A stretch of DNA of 64,000 bases from Nocardioides marmorisolisilvae (GTDB lineage Bacteria; Actinomycetota; Actinomycetes; Propionibacteriales; Nocardioidaceae). Location of the stretch: positions 464,746-528,745 of the forward strand of contig NZ_RJSG01000001.1 in the NCBI RefSeq assembly GCF_003725775.1. Reading direction: 5' to 3'. Shown here piece by piece: positions 6,882-53,955 of this stretch. Position numbers and translations under genes: made by a program. Numbering within the stretch: the stretch's first letter is position 1; the number at the start of each line of letters is the position of its first letter. The notes beneath the pieces are model-generated. The model saw only the letters and a list, made by a program, of their open reading frames with translations. It was not told where the DNA came from and ran no database searches.

Positions 6882-7963
6882 CAGCCGTGGACGCGCCTGA
6901 GCCAGGCGTCGGGGTCGTGGATCTCGGTCTTGGTCGGCAGGTTCGCGGCCTCGGCCCAGACGGCGTTGAAGCCCTCCATCCCGACCTTGTCGACCGCCTG
7001 GCGCACGAAGACGGCGCCGTCCCGGTACTGCGCCATCTTCTGGTCCAGGCCGAGCAACCGGCGCAGCAGCTTGTCGAGGCTGCCGACGCCCTTGCGTCGC
7101 TGGGTGAACTTCTCCCGGATCTGGGAGACCGTCGGGATCACCTCGGGTCCGACGCCGTCCATCACCACGTCGGCGTGACCCTCGAGCAGGCTCATCACCC
7201 CGGTGACCTGGTCGATGACCAGCTTCTGCTCGGGCGTCGAGAAGAGGTCGAGCAGGCTTGCCGCTTGTCCTGAGCCTGTCGAAGGGTCGGTCTTGCCGGA
7301 CACCAGTGCGCCGACCCGGGACATGCCCTCGGACAGCAGTGCCGAGGGGTCGGTCTCGACCGCGTTCACGATCTGGCCCATCAGCGAGTGCAGGTGGTCG
7401 CGCATCCAGGGGACGGCAGTGAACTGCACCCGGTGGGTCTCCTCGTGCAGGCAGACCCAGAGCCGGAAGTCGTGCTCGTCGACGTCGAGCTCGCGCTCGA
7501 CCTGGACGATGTTCGGGGCGACCAGCAGCAGGCGACCAGCCGCTCCCGGGGCCTCGTGGAACGGGTCGAACTGGCCGAGCACCTTGTTGCCCAGGAAGCC
7601 GAGCATCACGCCGAGCTCGGCGCCGGTGATCCGCGAGCCGATCGCCTCGGTGAGCGGCGACGGCGGTCCCTTCTTGTCCTGGAGCTTGGCGACGATCGGC
7701 GCGATCACCGTCGAGAAGGCGTCGGCGTTGGCCCGGATCCAGCCGGGACGGTCGACGACCAGCACCGGCGCCGTGCGCTCCTCGGCGACGAGTCCGGTGA
7801 ACTCGCGCACCAGCGGGGTCGAGCGGGTCGCCCCGGCCCGCAGCTCGGCGACCACCGCGTCGGCCTCGCCGCGGCTCACGACCGGGCCGTCACCGGCCAG
7901 CCGGGAGCCCACGCGGACGGCGAGATCCCAGTCGATCATCGCGGAGGGCGCTGCTGCAGTCAT
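6881..7963 (-). CDS. zinc-dependent metalloprotease of the DUF2342 family (F420-biosynthesis-associated)
   Basis: Actinobacterial zincin-fold protein of 360 residues, a conserved neighbour of dacB and tilS in this phylum. The active-site motif HEETH occurs near residue 175 in LWVCLHEETHRVQF. It is often annotated as coenzyme-F420-biosynthesis-associated, but the natural substrate is unknown. ATG at 7963 (MTAAAPS) is chosen; MIDWDLAVRVG eight codons later is also possible. Residues about 226-232 read DPSTGSGQ and are encoded by a dispersed 19-base repeat (7269-7287), apparently an in-frame insertion in a loop. It lies 25 bases downstream of dacB and overlaps tilS by one base, indicating one operon. 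Confidence 0.88.
   Translation of the reverse strand: MTAAAPSAMIDWDLAVRVGSRLAGDGPVVSRGEADAVVAELRAGATRSTPLVREFTGLVAEERTAPVLVVDRPGWIRANADAFSTVIAPIVAKLQDKKGPPSPLTEAIGSRITGAELGVMLGFLGNKVLGQFDPFHEAPGAAGRLLLVAPNIVQVERELDVDEHDFRLWVCLHEETHRVQFTAVPWMRDHLHSLMGQIVNAVETDPSALLSEGMSRVGALVSGKTDPSTGSGQAASLLDLFSTPEQKLVIDQVTGVMSLLEGHADVVMDGVGPEVIPTVSQIREKFTQRRKGVGSLDKLLRRLLGLDQKMAQYRDGAVFVRQAVDKVGMEGFNAVWAEAANLPTKTEIHDPDAWLRRVHG
7266..7288 (-). repeat. dispersed repeat copy inside the DUF2342 metalloprotease gene
   Basis: The 19 bases 7269-7287, cctgagcctgtcgaagggt on the plus strand, recur exactly at 37109-37127 inside an unrelated methyltransferase gene. On the coding strand they read P-S-T-G-S-G, in the same frame in both genes. 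Confidence 0.85.
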
Positions 7964-7988
7964 GAGGGAGACCCTACGGGTCGCCCTG

Positions 7989-9470
7989 TCAGGAGACCGG
8001 GGAATCCTTGGGCCGGCCGCAGTGGCAGGCACCCAGCGCCGCCGCCATCAGGTCGATCTGGTGCCGGGCTGGCAGCGTGTTCGGGACCGAGACCCGGTCG
8101 GCGATGATCACGAACCCGAGGAGGTCGCCGTCGAGGTCGGTGGCGACGCCGGCGAGTCCGTGCACCCCGGTCAGCGTTCCGGTCTTGGCGAGCACCCGAC
8201 CACGCGCCGCGGTCGGACCGTCGTCGAAGCGTTCCTGGAGTGAGCCGGTGAACCCGGCGACCGGCAGGCCGGTGATCACCTCGCGCAACGTCGGGTGCTC
8301 GGGCGATGCGGCGGTCCGGAGCACGTCGAGCAGCGTCGTCGGGGTGAGGTGGTTGCGGCGCGAGAGACCGCTGCCGTCGTAGATCCGCGAGCCGGCGAGG
8401 TCGACCCCGAGCTCGTCGAGCACCCGGAACACCGCCGTCGTGCCGCCGCTGAAGGACGGCGAGGTACCGACCTTGAGGGCGACCTGCCGGGCGAGGACCT
8501 CGGCGGCGTTGTTGTCGCTCACGGTCAGGGTGTGCTGGACGATCTCGCCGACCGGGGCGCTCTTCATCTCCGCGACCTGGACGGCATCCGCCGGAGCCTT
8601 CCCCGCACGGACCGGCCCGACGACCTTGATGCCGGCCTTGGCCAGCGAGGTCGCGAAGCTGTGACCTGCCACGGCGGCGGGGTCGGTGACGAAGCGGTGG
8701 TCCACCTTGCCCTCGTCGACCCAGAGCGCCCGGATCGGCGGCACGACGCTGTCCGGCCCGTAGGCGGCCGGCCAGTTCGGGTTCATCCCCGGACCGGTGA
8801 ACAACGTGGCGTCGTAGCTCAGCCGCACCTGCCGGATGCCCTGCGCCGTCAGTGCCGCGGCGGTCCGTCGGGCGAGCGTCTGGGCATCAGCGCGCGCCGG
8901 GTAACGGCCCTTCGCGGCGGCCGGCGTGCTGGCCAGGAAGGGGTCACCTCCACCGACGAGGGTGAGCCGGTCACCGACGGCGACGACGCGGGTGCTGAAC
9001 CGGGTCATCGGACCGAGGCTCTGCAGCGCGGCGAGCGAGGTCAGCAGCTTGGTGGTCGATGCTGGCGTGACCGAGCCGCTCCCGCGCTGGAAGAGCACCG
9101 TGCCGGTCGACAGGTCGGTGACGAGCATGTCGACGTGCTTGCCCAGGCGCTTGTCCGCCAGCAGGTGCGTCAGCGCCGAGCGGACCCGTGCCGGGTCGGC
9201 GCTGCCCGGGGTCAGCGCCGCGGCGACCGCCGGCGCCGGAGTTCCGGCGGGCAGGTCGAGCCCCTCGGGCGGCAGCACCGCGGCGGGGTGGGAGTCGGGA
9301 TCGGTCGCCGGCAGGCCGAACCAGCGGTGCCCCAGGTCGTACTGCACGTTGCCGACGGCCGCGAGGACCACCAGCACCACCAGCACCTCGGGGACCCAGG
9401 AGAGCACCCGGCGCAGGGTTCGTGAGCCCTTCGCGTGGCGTTGCTCACGCCGAGCCCCCCTACGGGCCAT
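7989..9470 (-). CDS. dacB: D-alanyl-D-alanine carboxypeptidase/endopeptidase, PBP4 type (peptidase S13)
   Basis: Penicillin-binding protein that trims or cleaves peptidoglycan peptides outside the membrane. The 493-residue protein has an N-terminal basic stretch, one membrane anchor (about residues 25-45), and the three active-site motifs in order: STTK near 137, SDNN near 318 and KTG near 426. The start was set at ATG 9470 because GAGGAG lies seven bases upstream of it; two earlier in-frame ATGs (9503, 9494) lack a good ribosome binding site. It is divergent from ppa and heads the operon dacB - DUF2342 metalloprotease - tilS. Confidence 0.93.
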   Translation of the reverse strand: MARRGARREQRHAKGSRTLRRVLSWVPEVLVVLVVLAAVGNVQYDLGHRWFGLPATDPDSHPAAVLPPEGLDLPAGTPAPAVAAALTPGSADPARVRSALTHLLADKRLGKHVDMLVTDLSTGTVLFQRGSGSVTPASTTKLLTSLAALQSLGPMTRFSTRVVAVGDRLTLVGGGDPFLASTPAAAKGRYPARADAQTLARRTAAALTAQGIRQVRLSYDATLFTGPGMNPNWPAAYGPDSVVPPIRALWVDEGKVDHRFVTDPAAVAGHSFATSLAKAGIKVVGPVRAGKAPADAVQVAEMKSAPVGEIVQHTLTVSDNNAAEVLARQVALKVGTSPSFSGGTTAVFRVLDELGVDLAGSRIYDGSGLSRRNHLTPTTLLDVLRTAASPEHPTLREVITGLPVAGFTGSLQERFDDGPTAARGRVLAKTGTLTGVHGLAGVATDLDGDLLGFVIIADRVSVPNTLPARHQIDLMAAALGACHCGRPKDSPVS

Positions 9471-42969: not shown

Positions 42970-45288
42970 GTGAGCACGACCCGGCTGGAGCACCTCGTCG
43001 ACCGGCTCACCGGTGCGCCGGGGCGCGACGACCGGCTCACCCACCTCGAGGTGCTGCCCCCGCGGGTCGCACGGACCGCGCCGTGGCCCGCCTGGGTCGA
43101 CCCGGAGCTGGTCGCCGCCTGGAAGCGCGGTGGCATCGCCGAGCCCTGGGCGCACCAGGTCGAGGCGGCGGACCTCGCTCACGCCGGCGAGCACGCGGTG
43201 CTCGCTACCGGCACGGCTTCGGGCAAGTCGCTCGGCTACCTGATGCCCGCGCTGACCGCGATCAACACCAAGCGCGGCCCCCGAGGGCAGCGGGGCTCGA
43301 GCACGCTCTACATCTCCCCCACCAAGGCGCTCGCCCAGGACCAGCTGAACACCCTGCGCGGGCTCGGGCTGGAGGGACTGCGCGTCGCCACCCACGACGG
43401 GGACTCCTCGCCGGAGGAACGGGAGTGGACACGGGACCACGGCGAGTACGTGCTCACCAACCCCGACATGCTGCACCGCTCGCTGCTGCCGGGCCACGAG
43501 CGGTGGACCCGGTTCTTCGCCGCGCTCGACTTCGTCGTCATCGACGAGTGCCACCACTACCGCGGCGTCTTCGGCGCGCACGTCTCCCAGGTCATGCGTC
43601 GACTGCGCCGGGTCGCCGCCCTGTACGGCGCGAGCCCGACGTTCGTGCTGGCCTCGGCCACGGTCGCCGAGCCGGAGGTCGCGGCCGGCCGCCTGACCGG
43701 GCTGCCGGTCCGCGCCGTCACCGACGACGCCTCGCCGCGCGGCCAGGTGGCCCTGGCGTTGTGGGAACCGCCGTTCGTCTCCTACGGCGGCGAGCACGGC
43801 GCCCCGGTACGTCGATCCGTGACCGCCGAGCTGGCCGACCTGCTCACCGACCTGATCATCGAGAACGTCCGCACGCTCGCCTTCGTGCGCAGCCGTCGAG
43901 GCGCGGAGACGGTCTCGCTGACCACGAAGCGGCTGCTCGACGAGGTCGACGCGTCGCTGGCCGCCCGGGTCGCCGCCTACCGCGGTGGCTATCTCCCCGA
44001 GGAGCGACGCGAGCTCGAGCAGGCGCTGCGCTCAGGCGAGCTGCTCGGCCTGGCCGCAACCAACGCGCTCGAGCTCGGCATCGACATCTCCGGCCTGGAC
44101 GCCGTGCTCCTCGGCGGCTTCCCCGGCACCCGTGCTGCGTTGTGGCAGCAGGTCGGTCGCGCCGGACGCGACGGCGGCGACGCCCTCGGGGTGCTGGTCG
44201 CCCGCGACGACCCGCTCGACACCTACCTGGTCAACCACCCCGAGCACCTGCTCGGCCGGCCGGTAGAGGCGACCGTCTTCGACCCCGACAACCCCTACGT
44301 CCTCGGTCCGCACCTGTGCGCCGCGGCGGCTGAGTCGCCCCTGACCGAGGAGGGACTGGAGATCTTCGGACCCGCCGCCCGCGACGCCGTCGATGCCCTC
44401 ACCGCGGCCGGGCTGCTCCGCAAGCGTCACCACGGCTGGTACTGGACCGACCGCCGCCGGGCCAGCGACCTGGCCGACATCAGGTCCTCGGGCGGCAGCC
44501 CGGTGCGGCTGGTGGAGGAGAGCACCGGCCGGGTCCTCGGCACCGTCGACCACGGGTCGTCCCACGGCACCGCGCACTCCGGCGCCGTCTACCTGCACCA
44601 GGGCGAGAGCTACCTGGTGCTCGACCTCGACCTGGAGGAGTCGGTCGCCACGGTCGTTCCGGCACCCGACGTCAGCTACTCGACCTCGGCCCGCGAGGTC
44701 ACCGACATCGAGATCGTCCGCGAGGCCCGCCACGAGACGTGGGGGCGGGTGCGGCTGAGCTTCGGCACGGTCCGCGTGACCCATCAGGTCGTGTCGTTCC
44801 TCAAGCGCAAGGTGCCCTCCGGCGACGTCATCGGCGAGGAGCCGCTCGACCTGCCCGAGCGAACGCTCGAGACCGCCTCGGTCTGGTGGACCGTCCCCGA
44901 CGACGTGCTCGAGGACTCCGGTATCTCCGCCGAGGACCTGCCCGGTGCCGCGCATGCCGCGGAGCACGCGAGCATCGGCCTGCTTCCGCTGTTCGCCACC
45001 TGTGACCGCTGGGACATCGGCGGTGTCTCCACCGCCCGCCACGCCGACACCGGCGTACTCACCGTCTTCGTCTACGACGGCCACCCCGGCGGCGCCGGCT
45101 TCAGCGAGCGCGGCTTCGCCACCGCGTTCGAGTGGCTGGAGGCCACCCGGGACGCGATCGACTCGTGCGCCTGCACCGAGGGCTGCCCGTCCTGCGTGCA
45201 GTCGCCGAAGTGCGGCAACCAGAACAACCCGCTCGACAAGGCGGGAGCTGTACGGCTGCTGGATCTGGTACTAGCCGAAGTCAATTAG
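42970..45288 (+). CDS. DEAD/DEAH-box helicase with C-terminal DUF1998 zinc cluster (MrfA type)
   Basis: A 772-residue superfamily 2 helicase. Walker A GTASGKSLGY near residue 80, DEAH-type box VIDECHHYRG near 190, ASATVAEP near 215, and motif VI QQVGRAGRDGG near 395; the C-terminal DUF1998 region has the four-cysteine cluster CACTEGCPSCVQSPKCG near 733. These features match Bacillus MrfA, which with MrfB repairs mitomycin C adducts, and Rv3649 of mycobacteria. Start GTG 42970 with GGGAG upstream. The tad locus follows 3 kb away, as in mycobacteria (Rv3649...Rv3654c-Rv3660c). Its stop overlaps the convergent permease gene (TTAG). Confidence 0.9.
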   Translation: MSTTRLEHLVDRLTGAPGRDDRLTHLEVLPPRVARTAPWPAWVDPELVAAWKRGGIAEPWAHQVEAADLAHAGEHAVLATGTASGKSLGYLMPALTAINTKRGPRGQRGSSTLYISPTKALAQDQLNTLRGLGLEGLRVATHDGDSSPEEREWTRDHGEYVLTNPDMLHRSLLPGHERWTRFFAALDFVVIDECHHYRGVFGAHVSQVMRRLRRVAALYGASPTFVLASATVAEPEVAAGRLTGLPVRAVTDDASPRGQVALALWEPPFVSYGGEHGAPVRRSVTAELADLLTDLIIENVRTLAFVRSRRGAETVSLTTKRLLDEVDASLAARVAAYRGGYLPEERRELEQALRSGELLGLAATNALELGIDISGLDAVLLGGFPGTRAALWQQVGRAGRDGGDALGVLVARDDPLDTYLVNHPEHLLGRPVEATVFDPDNPYVLGPHLCAAAAESPLTEEGLEIFGPAARDAVDALTAAGLLRKRHHGWYWTDRRRASDLADIRSSGGSPVRLVEESTGRVLGTVDHGSSHGTAHSGAVYLHQGESYLVLDLDLEESVATVVPAPDVSYSTSAREVTDIEIVREARHETWGRVRLSFGTVRVTHQVVSFLKRKVPSGDVIGEEPLDLPERTLETASVWWTVPDDVLEDSGISAEDLPGAAHAAEHASIGLLPLFATCDRWDIGGVSTARHADTGVLTVFVYDGHPGGAGFSERGFATAFEWLEATRDAIDSCACTEGCPSCVQSPKCGNQNNPLDKAGAVRLLDLVLAEVN

Positions 45289-46769
45289 TCCCTTGGCGGC
45301 GGCGATTGCACCGGTCCCAGAGCCGTGAAACTGAGAGCGGCGACCAAACCGCTGGCAAAAAGGACGAAGAGGCCCAGGCCCGCCACAGAGGTCCACGGAA
45401 TCGGGATCGGCACGATCCTCGTGTGCTCGATCGCACCACTTCCGACAACTTCAGCATGACCGGTGCCGAGGATGCCCCGCACGCCGAGAAGCGCGATGAC
45501 CGAAGAAGCGATCACACCTGGGACCAACGGTAGTAAGGCTTCGAGCACCACGCTGAGCCGCAGCACTCTGCGCGGCGTCCCCACGGCCAATTGGACCTCG
45601 AACTGCTCACGACGAGCGACCATCGCCTCGAAGGTACTGAGGGCGAGCCCGCAGCACGCCAGAGCTAGTGCGAGGTAGTAGGCGACATCCACGAGTCTCA
45701 GCGTGTCGGCATACAGCGGGTCTTCAGGATCAGTGATGACCAAGAAGTGCGCTTTGACCGCTTGTCCACTGAACGCCACGACGAGCGCAAGGAGGACTAG
45801 AGCCGTCGCGCGGCTGACTGCGTAGGGATCACTTTCCAAACGACGCCCGGCGATCAGAAGAGCCGGTCTTCTCGCCGTGTCAGCAATCCAGCGGCCGAGA
45901 TGCGATGCCACCGACGCCACCCCGACTACGAGAGACCCGGCGGCGACCGAGAACAACCCGACCACAACAATCACGTCGATCTGCGTGGCCCTGTTCGGCT
46001 GACCGAGGAGGGACCGTAGGCCGGAGTATCCGACCAGACCGCTGAGGCTGAGCAGAAGGGTGATCGCCGCGGCCGCAAGCGGGGGCCGACGAGCTTTGAC
46101 GCGTCGAGACACGGCAAGTGGATCTGCCTCAATGCGACGTGACGCGAACCAACAAACGATGACCGCGGCGGTCGGAAGCAGGAGCAGAGTCGCCAGAGCC
46201 CAGCAACTACCCGGTGCAACGTCCGTCGGCAGCACGTGGACCGAGCCGTGGTGAACATGAGTAATTTCCGTGGTCGCGTCGACCCCGTCGCGAACCACAG
46301 TCGTGGTGGTCCAGCTTCCGATCACTGTGAGCGGGCCGTTCAACAGACGCTGGGCGAGAGGAAAGGCGCAAAGCGCTGCAACTGCTCCTGTCGCCACGGG
46401 TAACGCCGCTTCGGCGACCAAGGCGATCCGGACCTCCCGGGGCGTGGCCCCGACGAGTCGGTACAGGGCCAGGCGGCGGTTCCGAGCCGGTGAACCCAAA
46501 GTTGCCGCCTGACCAAGCAGTGCCACAAGCGGGACTAGGAGCAGCGCCAATCCAGTAAGTAGTCCCTGTCGCATCGATGCCTGTTGAAGCAGGGCAGTCG
46601 AGTAGGGACCGCCGTGCCCAGAATCAATCGCTCTCACCGTCCCGACGGCCAGACAGGTGACGCTGGCAGCAGCGCCGACTGCGGCAGAGGCTACGAACCG
46701 AGGACGTGACGAGTACGCAGATCGGAAACCCAGTGCGACCAGGTTGAACAGTCGAACACCCCGCGTCAT
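45285..46769 (-). CDS. FtsX-like ABC transporter permease
   Basis: A 494-residue membrane protein with about eight transmembrane segments in two blocks, each with a large extracytoplasmic loop, and the FtsX-type loops LYRLVGATPREVRIALV (near 108) and LAVGTPRRVLRLSVVLEA (near 400). This MacB/LolE-type layout acts in mechanotransmission or export rather than import. Start ATG 46769 overlaps the ATPase stop by four bases (ATGA). It forms an operon with the upstream small secreted protein and ABC ATPase. Codon use is more relaxed than in flanking housekeeping genes. Confidence 0.85.
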   Translation of the reverse strand: MTRGVRLFNLVALGFRSAYSSRPRFVASAAVGAAASVTCLAVGTVRAIDSGHGGPYSTALLQQASMRQGLLTGLALLLVPLVALLGQAATLGSPARNRRLALYRLVGATPREVRIALVAEAALPVATGAVAALCAFPLAQRLLNGPLTVIGSWTTTTVVRDGVDATTEITHVHHGSVHVLPTDVAPGSCWALATLLLLPTAAVIVCWFASRRIEADPLAVSRRVKARRPPLAAAAITLLLSLSGLVGYSGLRSLLGQPNRATQIDVIVVVGLFSVAAGSLVVGVASVASHLGRWIADTARRPALLIAGRRLESDPYAVSRATALVLLALVVAFSGQAVKAHFLVITDPEDPLYADTLRLVDVAYYLALALACCGLALSTFEAMVARREQFEVQLAVGTPRRVLRLSVVLEALLPLVPGVIASSVIALLGVRGILGTGHAEVVGSGAIEHTRIVPIPIPWTSVAGLGLFVLFASGLVAALSFTALGPVQSPPPRD

Positions 46770-47452
46770 GCTGGCGCCTCGAGCATCCCGTCACGTAGCT
46801 CCACGACACGGTCAGCTCGACTGGCAGCCGCCGGGTCGTGTGTGACCATCACGACGGCTGTGCCTGCCCTTGCCAGGGCCACCAGTTCGTCGAGCACCCG
46901 AGCCCCGGAGTTCGAGTCGAGCGCGCCGGTCGGTTCGTCAGCGAAAAGGATCGTTGGGTCAGTTGCGACCGCCCTCGCCATGGCGACCCGCTGAGCCTGA
47001 CCCCCGGAAAGCGCGGAAGGTCTGGCAGGCGCAAACTCCGCGACTCCGAAGCGATCGAGTACCGCTGTGGCTCGCGCAATCGCCTCACCGCGTCGCATAC
47101 CCCGGAGGAGCAGGGGCAAGGCCACATTCTCTGCCGCCGAAAGCTCAGGCACGAGTTGGCCGAACTGGAACATGATGCCGAAGCAGGTTCGCCGCATCTC
47201 ACTCCGTCGAGCCTCGGCCAGCCGAGAGAGCTGCAGGCCACCAAAGGTGATCTCGCCGGCGTCAGGTTGAACGATGGTTGCCAGGCAGTGCAGCAGCGTC
47301 GACTTTCCCGAACCAGACGGCCCCGTGATCGCCAGCATCTCGCCAGCGAGGACCTCGAGATCGACGGCTTTCAGAACCTCGCGATCGCCGTAGGTCTTGG
47401 ACACTGCTCGGGCGCGGAGGACGGTGGTCGCTCCGGTTCCCGGAGCGACCAC
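46766..47452 (-). CDS. ABC transporter ATP-binding protein (LolD/MacB type)
   Basis: A 228-residue ATPase partner of the FtsX-like permease. Walker A ITGPSGSGKSTLLH near residue 45, Q-loop FQFGQLVPEL near 92, signature LSGGQAQRVAMARAV near 144, Walker B ILFADEPTGALD, H-loop MVTHDP. The start is uncertain. GTG 47452 is the first possible codon after the upstream stop and lies inside a perfect 15-bp hairpin (47422-47454), with no clear ribosome binding site. Translation may therefore be coupled to the upstream secreted-protein gene (stop 14 bases upstream), or be controlled by the hairpin. Confidence 0.85.
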   Translation of the reverse strand: MVAPGTGATTVLRARAVSKTYGDREVLKAVDLEVLAGEMLAITGPSGSGKSTLLHCLATIVQPDAGEITFGGLQLSRLAEARRSEMRRTCFGIMFQFGQLVPELSAAENVALPLLLRGMRRGEAIARATAVLDRFGVAEFAPARPSALSGGQAQRVAMARAVATDPTILFADEPTGALDSNSGARVLDELVALARAGTAVVMVTHDPAAASRADRVVELRDGMLEAPA

Positions 47453-47454
47453 CG
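47422..47454. promoter_or_regulatory. perfect 15-bp hairpin over the start codon of the ABC ATPase gene
   Basis: Arms 47422-47436 and 47440-47454 (cggtggtcgctccgg and its exact complement) with a three-base loop. The presumed GTG start is within the 5' arm on the transcript. No T-run follows, so it does not look like a terminator; it could block or delay translation, or be a processing point between the secreted protein and the transporter. Confidence 0.75.
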
Positions 47455-47466
47455 AGAGGTAGGAGT

Positions 47467-47844
47467 TCAGCTTCGGCCGCCTGACTCGTAACCGCTGCAG
47501 TCGTTCGGCCAGTTGTTGATCTCCTCGCAGGAACGGAACTTGACCACCTTGTTCTCGCTCCACTGGTGATCGAAGTTCTTGCACGTGCCGTTGCCGCCGC
47601 CCCAGTTGTGCTTGGTCAACGAACCTCCGTCGAACGCGTATTCGGCGTACACCGCGTGCCCATCGCTGCTGGTATCGCACACGTGGAAGCGCTCATCGTT
47701 GCCGGCGCCACTCCCGTCAGGATCGTTGTTGAAAAGGACCGACGAGCCGTCAGTCGTCTTCTGCCAGGTCGCCGCCATGGCTGCAGTTGCTCCGAAGAAC
47801 AAGCCGACCGCTGCCAATGTCAGTACCACCAGGAAACTCTTCAT
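47467..47844 (-). CDS. small secreted protein linked to an ABC transporter
   Basis: A 125-residue exported protein: signal peptide (MKSFLVVLTLAAVGLFFGATAAMA, cut near residue 25), a mature part of about 100 residues with four cysteines (VCDT, TCKNF, SCEEI, DCSGY) and the motif DGHAVYAEY. Small secreted actinobacterial proteins with a related VCD...DGHGVYAEY pattern are common, but none has a known function to my knowledge. Start ATG 47844 has GGGAGG upstream. It leads an operon with an ABC ATPase and FtsX-like permease. The layout resembles toxin/bacteriocin export-immunity operons, which is only a guess. Confidence 0.75.
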   Translation of the reverse strand: MKSFLVVLTLAAVGLFFGATAAMAATWQKTTDGSSVLFNNDPDGSGAGNDERFHVCDTSSDGHAVYAEYAFDGGSLTKHNWGGGNGTCKNFDHQWSENKVVKFRSCEEINNWPNDCSGYESGGRS

Positions 47845-48010: not shown

Positions 48011-48400
48011 GTGTCCCTCGTACTTCCCCGGTCTTCGGCCTTCCTCGATTTCTGGATCGAACGTCGGCTCTGCACGGTGACCACGCTGCGGCCGGACGGC
48101 TCACCTCACGTCGTCCCGATGGGTGTGGTGATCGACCCGGAGACCGACACCGCTTGGGCGATCACCTCGAAGACCTCGCGCAAGGCGCGCAACCTGGCCG
48201 ACGGCGGACCGATCGCCGTGTGCTGCGTCGACGGCCGCTCCTGGTCGACGATCGAGGGAACGGCCACCGTTTCCGACGACCCGAAAGTCGTCGCCGAAGC
48301 CGAGCGTCGCTACGCCGAGCGTTACAAAGTGCCTCGCGAAAACCCGAGTCGCGTCGCGATCCGGATCTCGGTCACGAAGGTCATCGGCAACGTGGGTTAG
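48011..48400 (+). CDS. PPOX-class F420-dependent oxidoreductase (Rv1155-like)
   Basis: A 129-residue split-barrel flavin-fold protein; actinobacterial members of this size bind F420 and reduce quinone-like or biliverdin-like substrates. Features: FLDFWIERRLCTVTTLRPDGSPHVVPM at the start with the conserved PHVVP, and AWAITSKTSRKARNL near residue 50. Start GTG 48011. Divergent from the small secreted-protein gene. Confidence 0.88.
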   Translation: MSLVLPRSSAFLDFWIERRLCTVTTLRPDGSPHVVPMGVVIDPETDTAWAITSKTSRKARNLADGGPIAVCCVDGRSWSTIEGTATVSDDPKVVAEAERRYAERYKVPRENPSRVAIRISVTKVIGNVG

Positions 48401-53316: not shown

Positions 53317-53955
53317 TCAGAAGTGCACGGAGCTCGACGTACTGCCCCACCAGTAGGTGGTGTCGCCGATTCGGGCCCGGTAGTACCGCAGTTCGTCGGA
53401 CACCGCGGCGAGGCTGAACTTCCCGTGAGCGTCGGTCCGGTCGGAGTAGAGCGGGTGCCAGTCACAGGTCGTGCAGTCCCGGTACTGGATCGAGACGTAG
53501 CGGTGTGCCCACCCGCGGTAGCCGTCGACCGAGGCGACGTACCGGGTGATGGTCCCCGACAGCGGGACCTTGAGGTGGTCCTGGCGGTAGCCCTTCAGCG
53601 TGACCTTGGTGCCGAACTTCACGACGGCCTTCGTCGAGTTCTGCGGCACCGCCGCGGACGAGCTCGGGGTCACGGCGTACATGCCGGTCGGCCAGTTGTC
53701 GTGGAAGATCCACGAGCCCTGGTTGACCCCGTTCTTCGCGGTGATCGTGCCGTAGGTCTTGCCGCTGCGGGCCACCTTCCAGCTCGCGGAGGCGTAGCTG
53801 TCGCAGCCGGTGAACGTCGGCTTCACCCAGGTGAGCGGCGCACCGGCCGTCACCTTGTACGGGACGGCGATGGTGCAGACCGGCTCCACGGCGGAGGCCG
53901 GCGCCACCGGGGCGAGCACGGACGCGAGGACGAGGGGAAGGAGGATTCGACGCAC
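53317..53955 (-). CDS. secreted protein of unknown function
   Basis: A 212-residue exported protein: signal peptide (VRRILLPLVLASVLAPVAPASA, cut near residue 22), then a beta-rich mature part with cysteines at VCTI, GCDS and DCTTCDW, and many Tyr, Ser and Thr. It resembles Ig-like actinobacterial surface domains but I cannot name a family. Start GTG 53955. Its 3' end lies 48 bases from the DnaA-box sites. Confidence 0.7.
   Translation of the reverse strand: MRRILLPLVLASVLAPVAPASAVEPVCTIAVPYKVTAGAPLTWVKPTFTGCDSYASASWKVARSGKTYGTITAKNGVNQGSWIFHDNWPTGMYAVTPSSSAAVPQNSTKAVVKFGTKVTLKGYRQDHLKVPLSGTITRYVASVDGYRGWAHRYVSIQYRDCTTCDWHPLYSDRTDAHGKFSLAAVSDELRYYRARIGDTTYWWGSTSSSVHF

Follow-up and report, generated by a model that had tools for sequence, protein, structure and literature searches.

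A small secreted protein with four cysteines and an FtsX-type ABC transporter are encoded together in a three-gene operon on the minus strand of the window, the whole 64,000-nucleotide stretch analyzed here. Comparison with other genomes showed that the secreted family and the transporter belong together and that the pairing is real. The explanation ranked first, to which we give about an even chance, is a Type VII (mechanotransmission) ABC complex working with a secreted partner of its own, followed by a lactococcin 972-like bacteriocin with self-protection. The overall plan of a secreted protein with a Type VII ABC complex is already known. For the secreted family, with its motif and its distribution across the phylum, no convincing library match was obtained, and it did not appear among the papers listed in open-access searches. 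Nor was any paper on this secreted protein–transporter pairing among them.

The operon and its surroundings comprise the following features:

45285-46769, minus strand: FtsX-like permease, 494 aa (PF02687 FtsX, 2.8e-13, two stretches).
46766-47452, minus strand: LolD-like ABC ATPase (PF00005, 2.5e-32); start uncertain, GTG at 47450-47452 most likely.
47422-47454, minus strand: 15-bp perfect inverted repeat with a 3-nt loop (repeat search), containing the GTG at which the ATPase probably starts.
47467-47844, minus strand: secreted four-cysteine protein, first gene of the operon, 125 aa (open reading frame and translation).
47770-47844, minus strand: predicted signal peptide, residues 1-25 approximately, read by eye; the first strand of the protein model begins at residue 26.
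48011-48400, divergent from the operon: F420-type PPOX gene (TIGR03618, above cut-off), between the helicase and the tad genes.

The open reading frames and the PF00005 and PF02687 matches bear out the initial annotation, in which an exported four-cysteine protein of 125 residues is encoded first in an operon, ahead of a LolD-like ATPase and an FtsX-like permease. The span given there, 46766-47844, takes in the secreted gene and the ATPase but leaves out the permease (45285-46769). The ATG of the secreted gene is preceded, 5 bases upstream, by GGGAGG. The hydrophobic N-terminus of the product ends in AMA-A, as read by eye and not from a predictor, and the protein would be exported by Sec. The sequence DGHAVYAEY forms residues 61-69, and the cysteines lie at positions 56, 88, 106 and 116. 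No convincing match to the protein was obtained in Pfam, NCBIfam, PHROGs, PADLOC or the PDB sequences, PHROGs and PADLOC being queried with the window protein alone, and the family look-ups of its relatives gave none either, apart from a stray weak match of one relative to FosX (0.0044). The functions considered for it below are put forward conditionally.

The best NCBIfam match of the ATPase was LolD (TIGR02211) with 200.8 bits, under the cut-off of 307.75, and it was not assigned to LolCDE on this score. The ATPase was also not assigned to the lactococcin 972 family type, as its TIGR03608 score was 177.7 and the cut-off is 254.85. The ATPase and permease genes overlap by 4 bases. The AlphaFold2 model of the permease (pLDDT 80.6, pTM 0.79, 14 sequences) has ten predicted membrane helices with only short extracellular hairpins, and it matched YbbP (9ge7; VIA Z 18.3, 4.7 Å over 387 residues) and BceB (8s5g; VIA Z 18.1, 6.2 Å over 406 residues) above the chance level for helical models, which is Z 13-14. 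Half of the model gave Z 11.5-16.7 to LolC/E, MacB, HrtB and FtsX chains; Foldseek alone reached a best E of 0.0057. An FtsX-like permease fold was found together with an ABC ATPase, the combination that characterizes Type VII ABC transporters. YbbP and BceB are Type VII machines, whose substrates are typically not passed across the membrane (PMC12646458). Judging from the models, the ATPase–permease complex would act by mechanotransmission, with no cargo going through the membrane.

With the window protein alone as the query, relatives were detected in 16 of 394 genomes of the class (E 0.01) and 27 of 294 genomes of the family (E 0.05), the window's genome included. For the analysis of neighborhoods, 27 non-self places were taken, 17 from the class search and 11 from the family search, with one shared. 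The family search had yielded 28 non-self places, of which the 11 with E < 0.01 were taken and the 17 weaker ones left out; a single genome, G645, contributes three of the 11 as copies, and three of the 17 class-search places (L029, L031 and L035), not family members by profile, were kept in the count. An ATPase of this type lies directly downstream of the secreted gene in 11 of the 27 places (L021, L022, L023, L027, L030, L034, L065, L066, L068, L069 and L070) and is absent in 16, with about 0.07 expected from the ATPase frames in other parts of these loci, a background of 7 counted by eye. The initial annotation had staked its proposal on the secreted family and the transporter co-occurring in other genomes, and they do so at these places and, in a later case, in another class.

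A profile built from the linked members and two plasmid-borne ones matched 35 of the 394 class genomes at E 1e-4, linked or not and with the window's included. This search covered 46 places, 30 of which gave new loci, and the ATPase was directly downstream in eight of the 30 (the window's among them), seven of which had gone into building the profile. Ranks 1-7 and 9 in the match list are taken by the linked places. The full set was also present outside the profile, in L127 (G173) and, within a single Nocardioides metagenome genome, in L151 and L152. In the window and 15 other linked loci (L034 included), the ATPase is followed by a frame of 494-786 aa; when 15 linked permeases, L034 not among them, were scanned with Pfam FtsX, eight passed, four fell below the cut-off and three gave no match.

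When 198 genomes from the phylum were searched at E 1e-7, two members outside the class came to light, L206 and L207, both bearing the motif described below. In L206, which comes from another class, the ATPase adjoins the secreted gene, a permease of 707 aa (FtsX 2.1e-4, below the cut-off) overlaps it, and a 17-pair hairpin stands just before the ATPase; in L207, the contig ends directly behind the secreted gene. A scan of genome contigs with three relatives gave four loci, L149 and L150 among them repeating L065 and L021, and a scan with the window protein alone gave no relative. The family had no phage match, and its plasmid matches were to Streptomyces records only.

The cysteines were compared in 62 aligned rows, reduced to 45 distinct ones, with a shift of up to two columns allowed; the rows include linked and unlinked members, the window protein being one of them. 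Cysteines 56 and 88 are both present in 29 rows and both missing in 16, neither ever occurring alone (p 1.5e-12, kinship ignored). Cysteines 106 and 116 occur together in 31 rows and are both missing in 7, with 106 alone in 7, some of which end before position 116 (p 7.6e-5, kinship ignored). Since these cysteines occur as pairs, two disulfides, 56-88 and 106-116, are likely in the secreted protein. The loop at the second pair follows the motif C[EQT]-x5/6-P[DN]-x-C in 12 of the 15 linked and 2 of the 30 unlinked proteins (Fisher 1.2e-6, kinship ignored), the motif having been derived from the same sequences in which it was counted. The linked proteins without it are those of L023, L069 and L127. 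Both unlinked bearers are encoded on one Streptomyces plasmid (L020), with the nearest ATPase about 4 kb off and none beside them.

Structure prediction, a check suggested in the initial annotation, gave an all-beta model of the secreted protein (pLDDT 80.7, pTM 0.70, 15 sequences). Its best structural match was to residues 331-435 of 4ruw (Z 10.3, 2.3 Å over 93), the C-terminal part of an endonuclease/exonuclease/phosphatase protein of Beutenbergia. CBM56 (5t7a; Foldseek E 2.1e-3; Z 9.0, 3.1 Å over 92) and many Fn3-like domains at Z 7 to 9 matched as well, and neither 5t7a nor 4ruw was among the sequence matches. The predicted fold is a common sandwich, and therefore no function follows from it.

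The hairpin between the secreted gene and the ATPase (-31.8 kcal/mol) has a stem of 15, compared with a mean of 6.0 and a maximum of 13 in 100 shuffles. A stem of at least 12 within 80 bases behind the secreted gene was found in 6 of the 15 linked loci (the window, L023, L027, L034, L065 and L069), the six hairpins being unrelated in sequence, and a stem as long as the observed one arises in 0.3 to 2.7% of random 80-base stretches of these loci. Nine linked loci have no stem of this length; L022 folds into a longer, bulged hairpin. The hairpin of L206, which is not among the 15, lies beyond the 80-base range.

Over 12 triads (L034, L069 and L127 left out), the mean identities were 30% for the secreted protein, 42% for the ATPase and 22% for the permease, and the distances of the secreted protein and the permease were correlated (r 0.61, permutation p 0.0002), a co-divergence that would also result from joint inheritance. 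Eight loci were inspected that encode a related permease but lack the secreted gene, and in five of them (L099, L100, L101, L102 and L106) a PadR regulator (Pfam) lies beside the ATPase, which indicates that this transporter type works without a partner. Such PadR-linked FtsX/LolD transporters of actinobacteria are among the closest permease sequences to that of the window (L101, L099 and L100) and carry the PadR regulator at the place that the secreted gene takes in the window. L101 is the best non-self match of the window permease (40%) and falls inside the linked permease group; the partner was therefore lost or gained at some point. In the ATPase tree, in which the unlinked rows all come from the permease search, linked and unlinked rows are parted by one change with weak support (44/83).

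The permease gene lies tail to tail with a helicase gene downstream of the operon (TIGR03817, 'helicase/secretion neighborhood'), the two stop codons overlapping. Upstream of the operon, the divergent PPOX gene is followed by tad genes, named by their position and from the initial annotation. The helicase was found in 23 other genomes of the genus, and the stretch behind it was taken in 20 of them. Relatives of the tad genes follow it in 19 of the 20, in agreement with the initial annotation, which placed the operon between two loci that are normally close, and the secreted gene and permease occur at this site in 0 of the 20. The PPOX gene stands behind the helicase in seven of the 20, in six of which the tad genes then follow; in four genomes (L185, L186, L187 and L189) it comes within about 100 bases of the helicase, and the window operon is therefore an extra in that gap. 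GC3 amounts to 0.68-0.80 in the operon genes and 0.91-0.95 in the helicase and five other neighbors. The looser codon use reported for the operon thus holds relative to these genes, but GC3 is just as low in the tad genes (0.68-0.75) and stands at 0.83 in the PPOX gene. Horizontal gain of the operon would fit. Beside the tad genes, positions 53317-53955 encode a putative exported protein of 212 aa with a signal-like N-terminus and cysteines, both seen by eye.

In the favored explanation, the small protein would leave the cell via Sec, lose its signal peptide and fold outside as a beta-sandwich with two disulfides (56-88 and 106-116). Owing to the hairpin behind its gene, the cell probably makes more of it than of the transporter. 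Its export would not be the task of the ATPase and the ten-helix permease; these would spend ATP on moving the permease at the extracellular side of the membrane, and there the complex would handle the mature protein or its ligand, perhaps via the conserved disulfide loop C[EQT]-x5/6-P[DN]-x-C. What the computation shows is the pairing, the motif, the cysteine pairs, a hairpin in some of the loci and the predicted folds; Sec export and excess synthesis, like the contact, the direction of the work and the ligand, are what we infer here. In Type VII machines, work is done at the outer face, and what they do typically depends on a partner located there (PMC12646458). A partner that is exported by Sec, carries disulfides and is encoded in the same operon fits this, and cargo export does not. 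The pairing is compact and was found in two or more actinobacterial classes, and the signature motif may mark the place of contact. Against a partner model stand the 16 of 27 places without an adjacent ATPase, the strong hairpin in only 6 of 15 loci, the three of 15 permeases without an FtsX match, the PadR-linked permeases without a partner and the motif bearers of L020 without an adjoining ATPase.

The statement in the initial annotation that no characterized example of this architecture is known was too strong, as YbbAP-TesA, FtsEX-EnvC and lcn972-orf2-orf3 are described (PMC12646458, PMC4055356). YbbAP-TesA and FtsEX-EnvC pair such an ABC complex with a partner outside the membrane, the partner of the Type VII complex YbbAP of E. 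coli being a periplasmic hydrolase (PMC12646458). YbbAP-TesA shares with the window the ten-helix permease fold, the separate ATPase and a secreted partner encoded nearby. Unlike it, the window has a partner of about 100 residues, all-beta and without an enzyme family match, and the extracellular hairpins predicted for its permease are all short, whereas YbbP has two large domains.

A tentative alternative is a bacteriocin with ABC self-protection similar to lactococcin 972, in which the secreted protein would attack the surface of competing cells and be stripped from the producer's own membrane by the ABC complex. The lcn972-orf2-orf3 operon has the same plan, a small secreted bacteriocin encoded together with a putative two-gene ABC immunity transporter (PMC4055356). 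Lcn972 has no cysteines (PMC8538875), unlike the window protein with its four, which also has no sequence match to the lactococcin 972 family. The patchy spread (a family member in 35 of 394 class genomes), the absence of the operon from the corresponding site in all 20 congeneric genomes inspected, the low GC3, the hairpin behind the first gene and the motif-bearing proteins being mostly beside a transporter suit a bacteriocin. Its homologues, however, are often alone (30 of 45 rows unlinked), and those with the motif on the L020 plasmid have no neighboring transporter. In the three close triads L021, L065 and L152, moreover, the secreted protein is the most conserved component (58-61%, with 51-55% for the ATPase and 36-43% for the permease), the reverse of a simple arms race. 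Pfam and NCBIfam contain lactococcin 972 family models, and this family was not among the matches (E 1 or better) of 15 secreted-family members, which also speaks against a bacteriocin. No Lcn972 chain was among the matches listed (50 each) of two structure searches with the secreted model, which excludes nothing. It is conceivable, though doubtful, that the motif-bearing proteins form a phylum-wide undescribed class of disulfide-bonded antibacterials with their own Type VII ABC immunity. They would then be a separately arisen counterpart of lactococcin 972, each protein kept with its own immunity machine.

A sensing pair, in which a secreted signal or ligand trap acts with a BceAB-like complex that reports its state to a regulator, appears improbable. 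The permease fold resembles that of BceB (8s5g, Z 18.1), and a LuxR-type response regulator (Pfam) is encoded just upstream of the L206 triad (positions 7578-8240). BceB, the permease of the antimicrobial-peptide resistance transporter BceAB, has a large extracellular domain, unlike the 494-aa permease model with its short hairpins; the window operon, the one screened, contains no kinase, regulator or other two-component gene and has an extra secreted protein. A dedicated exporter, by which the ABC transporter would take the small protein out of the cytoplasm as the cargo considered in the initial annotation, is very unlikely: the linkage speaks for it, and the Sec-like signal peptide (by eye), the paired cysteines and the match of the permease to Type VII machines argue against it, so that the protein is better explained as a secreted partner of the complex or as a bacteriocin against which the ABC genes protect the producer.

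Several arrangements of the secreted family were observed in passing. In L198 (G057), four unlinked members stand in tandem at 7524-9321 with no ABC ATPase beside them, as judged by eye. In G645, three dispersed unlinked copies (L072, L073 and L074) have protein-identical frames, including the stretch before the likely start, in 14-kb loci that differ, and they are possibly a mobile cassette. The triads of L030 (G385) and L199 (G173) share two similar neighbors, whose frames end in DPEGPY-WPL and MTLETRSTKTVRVKK, and this points to inheritance at a single site.
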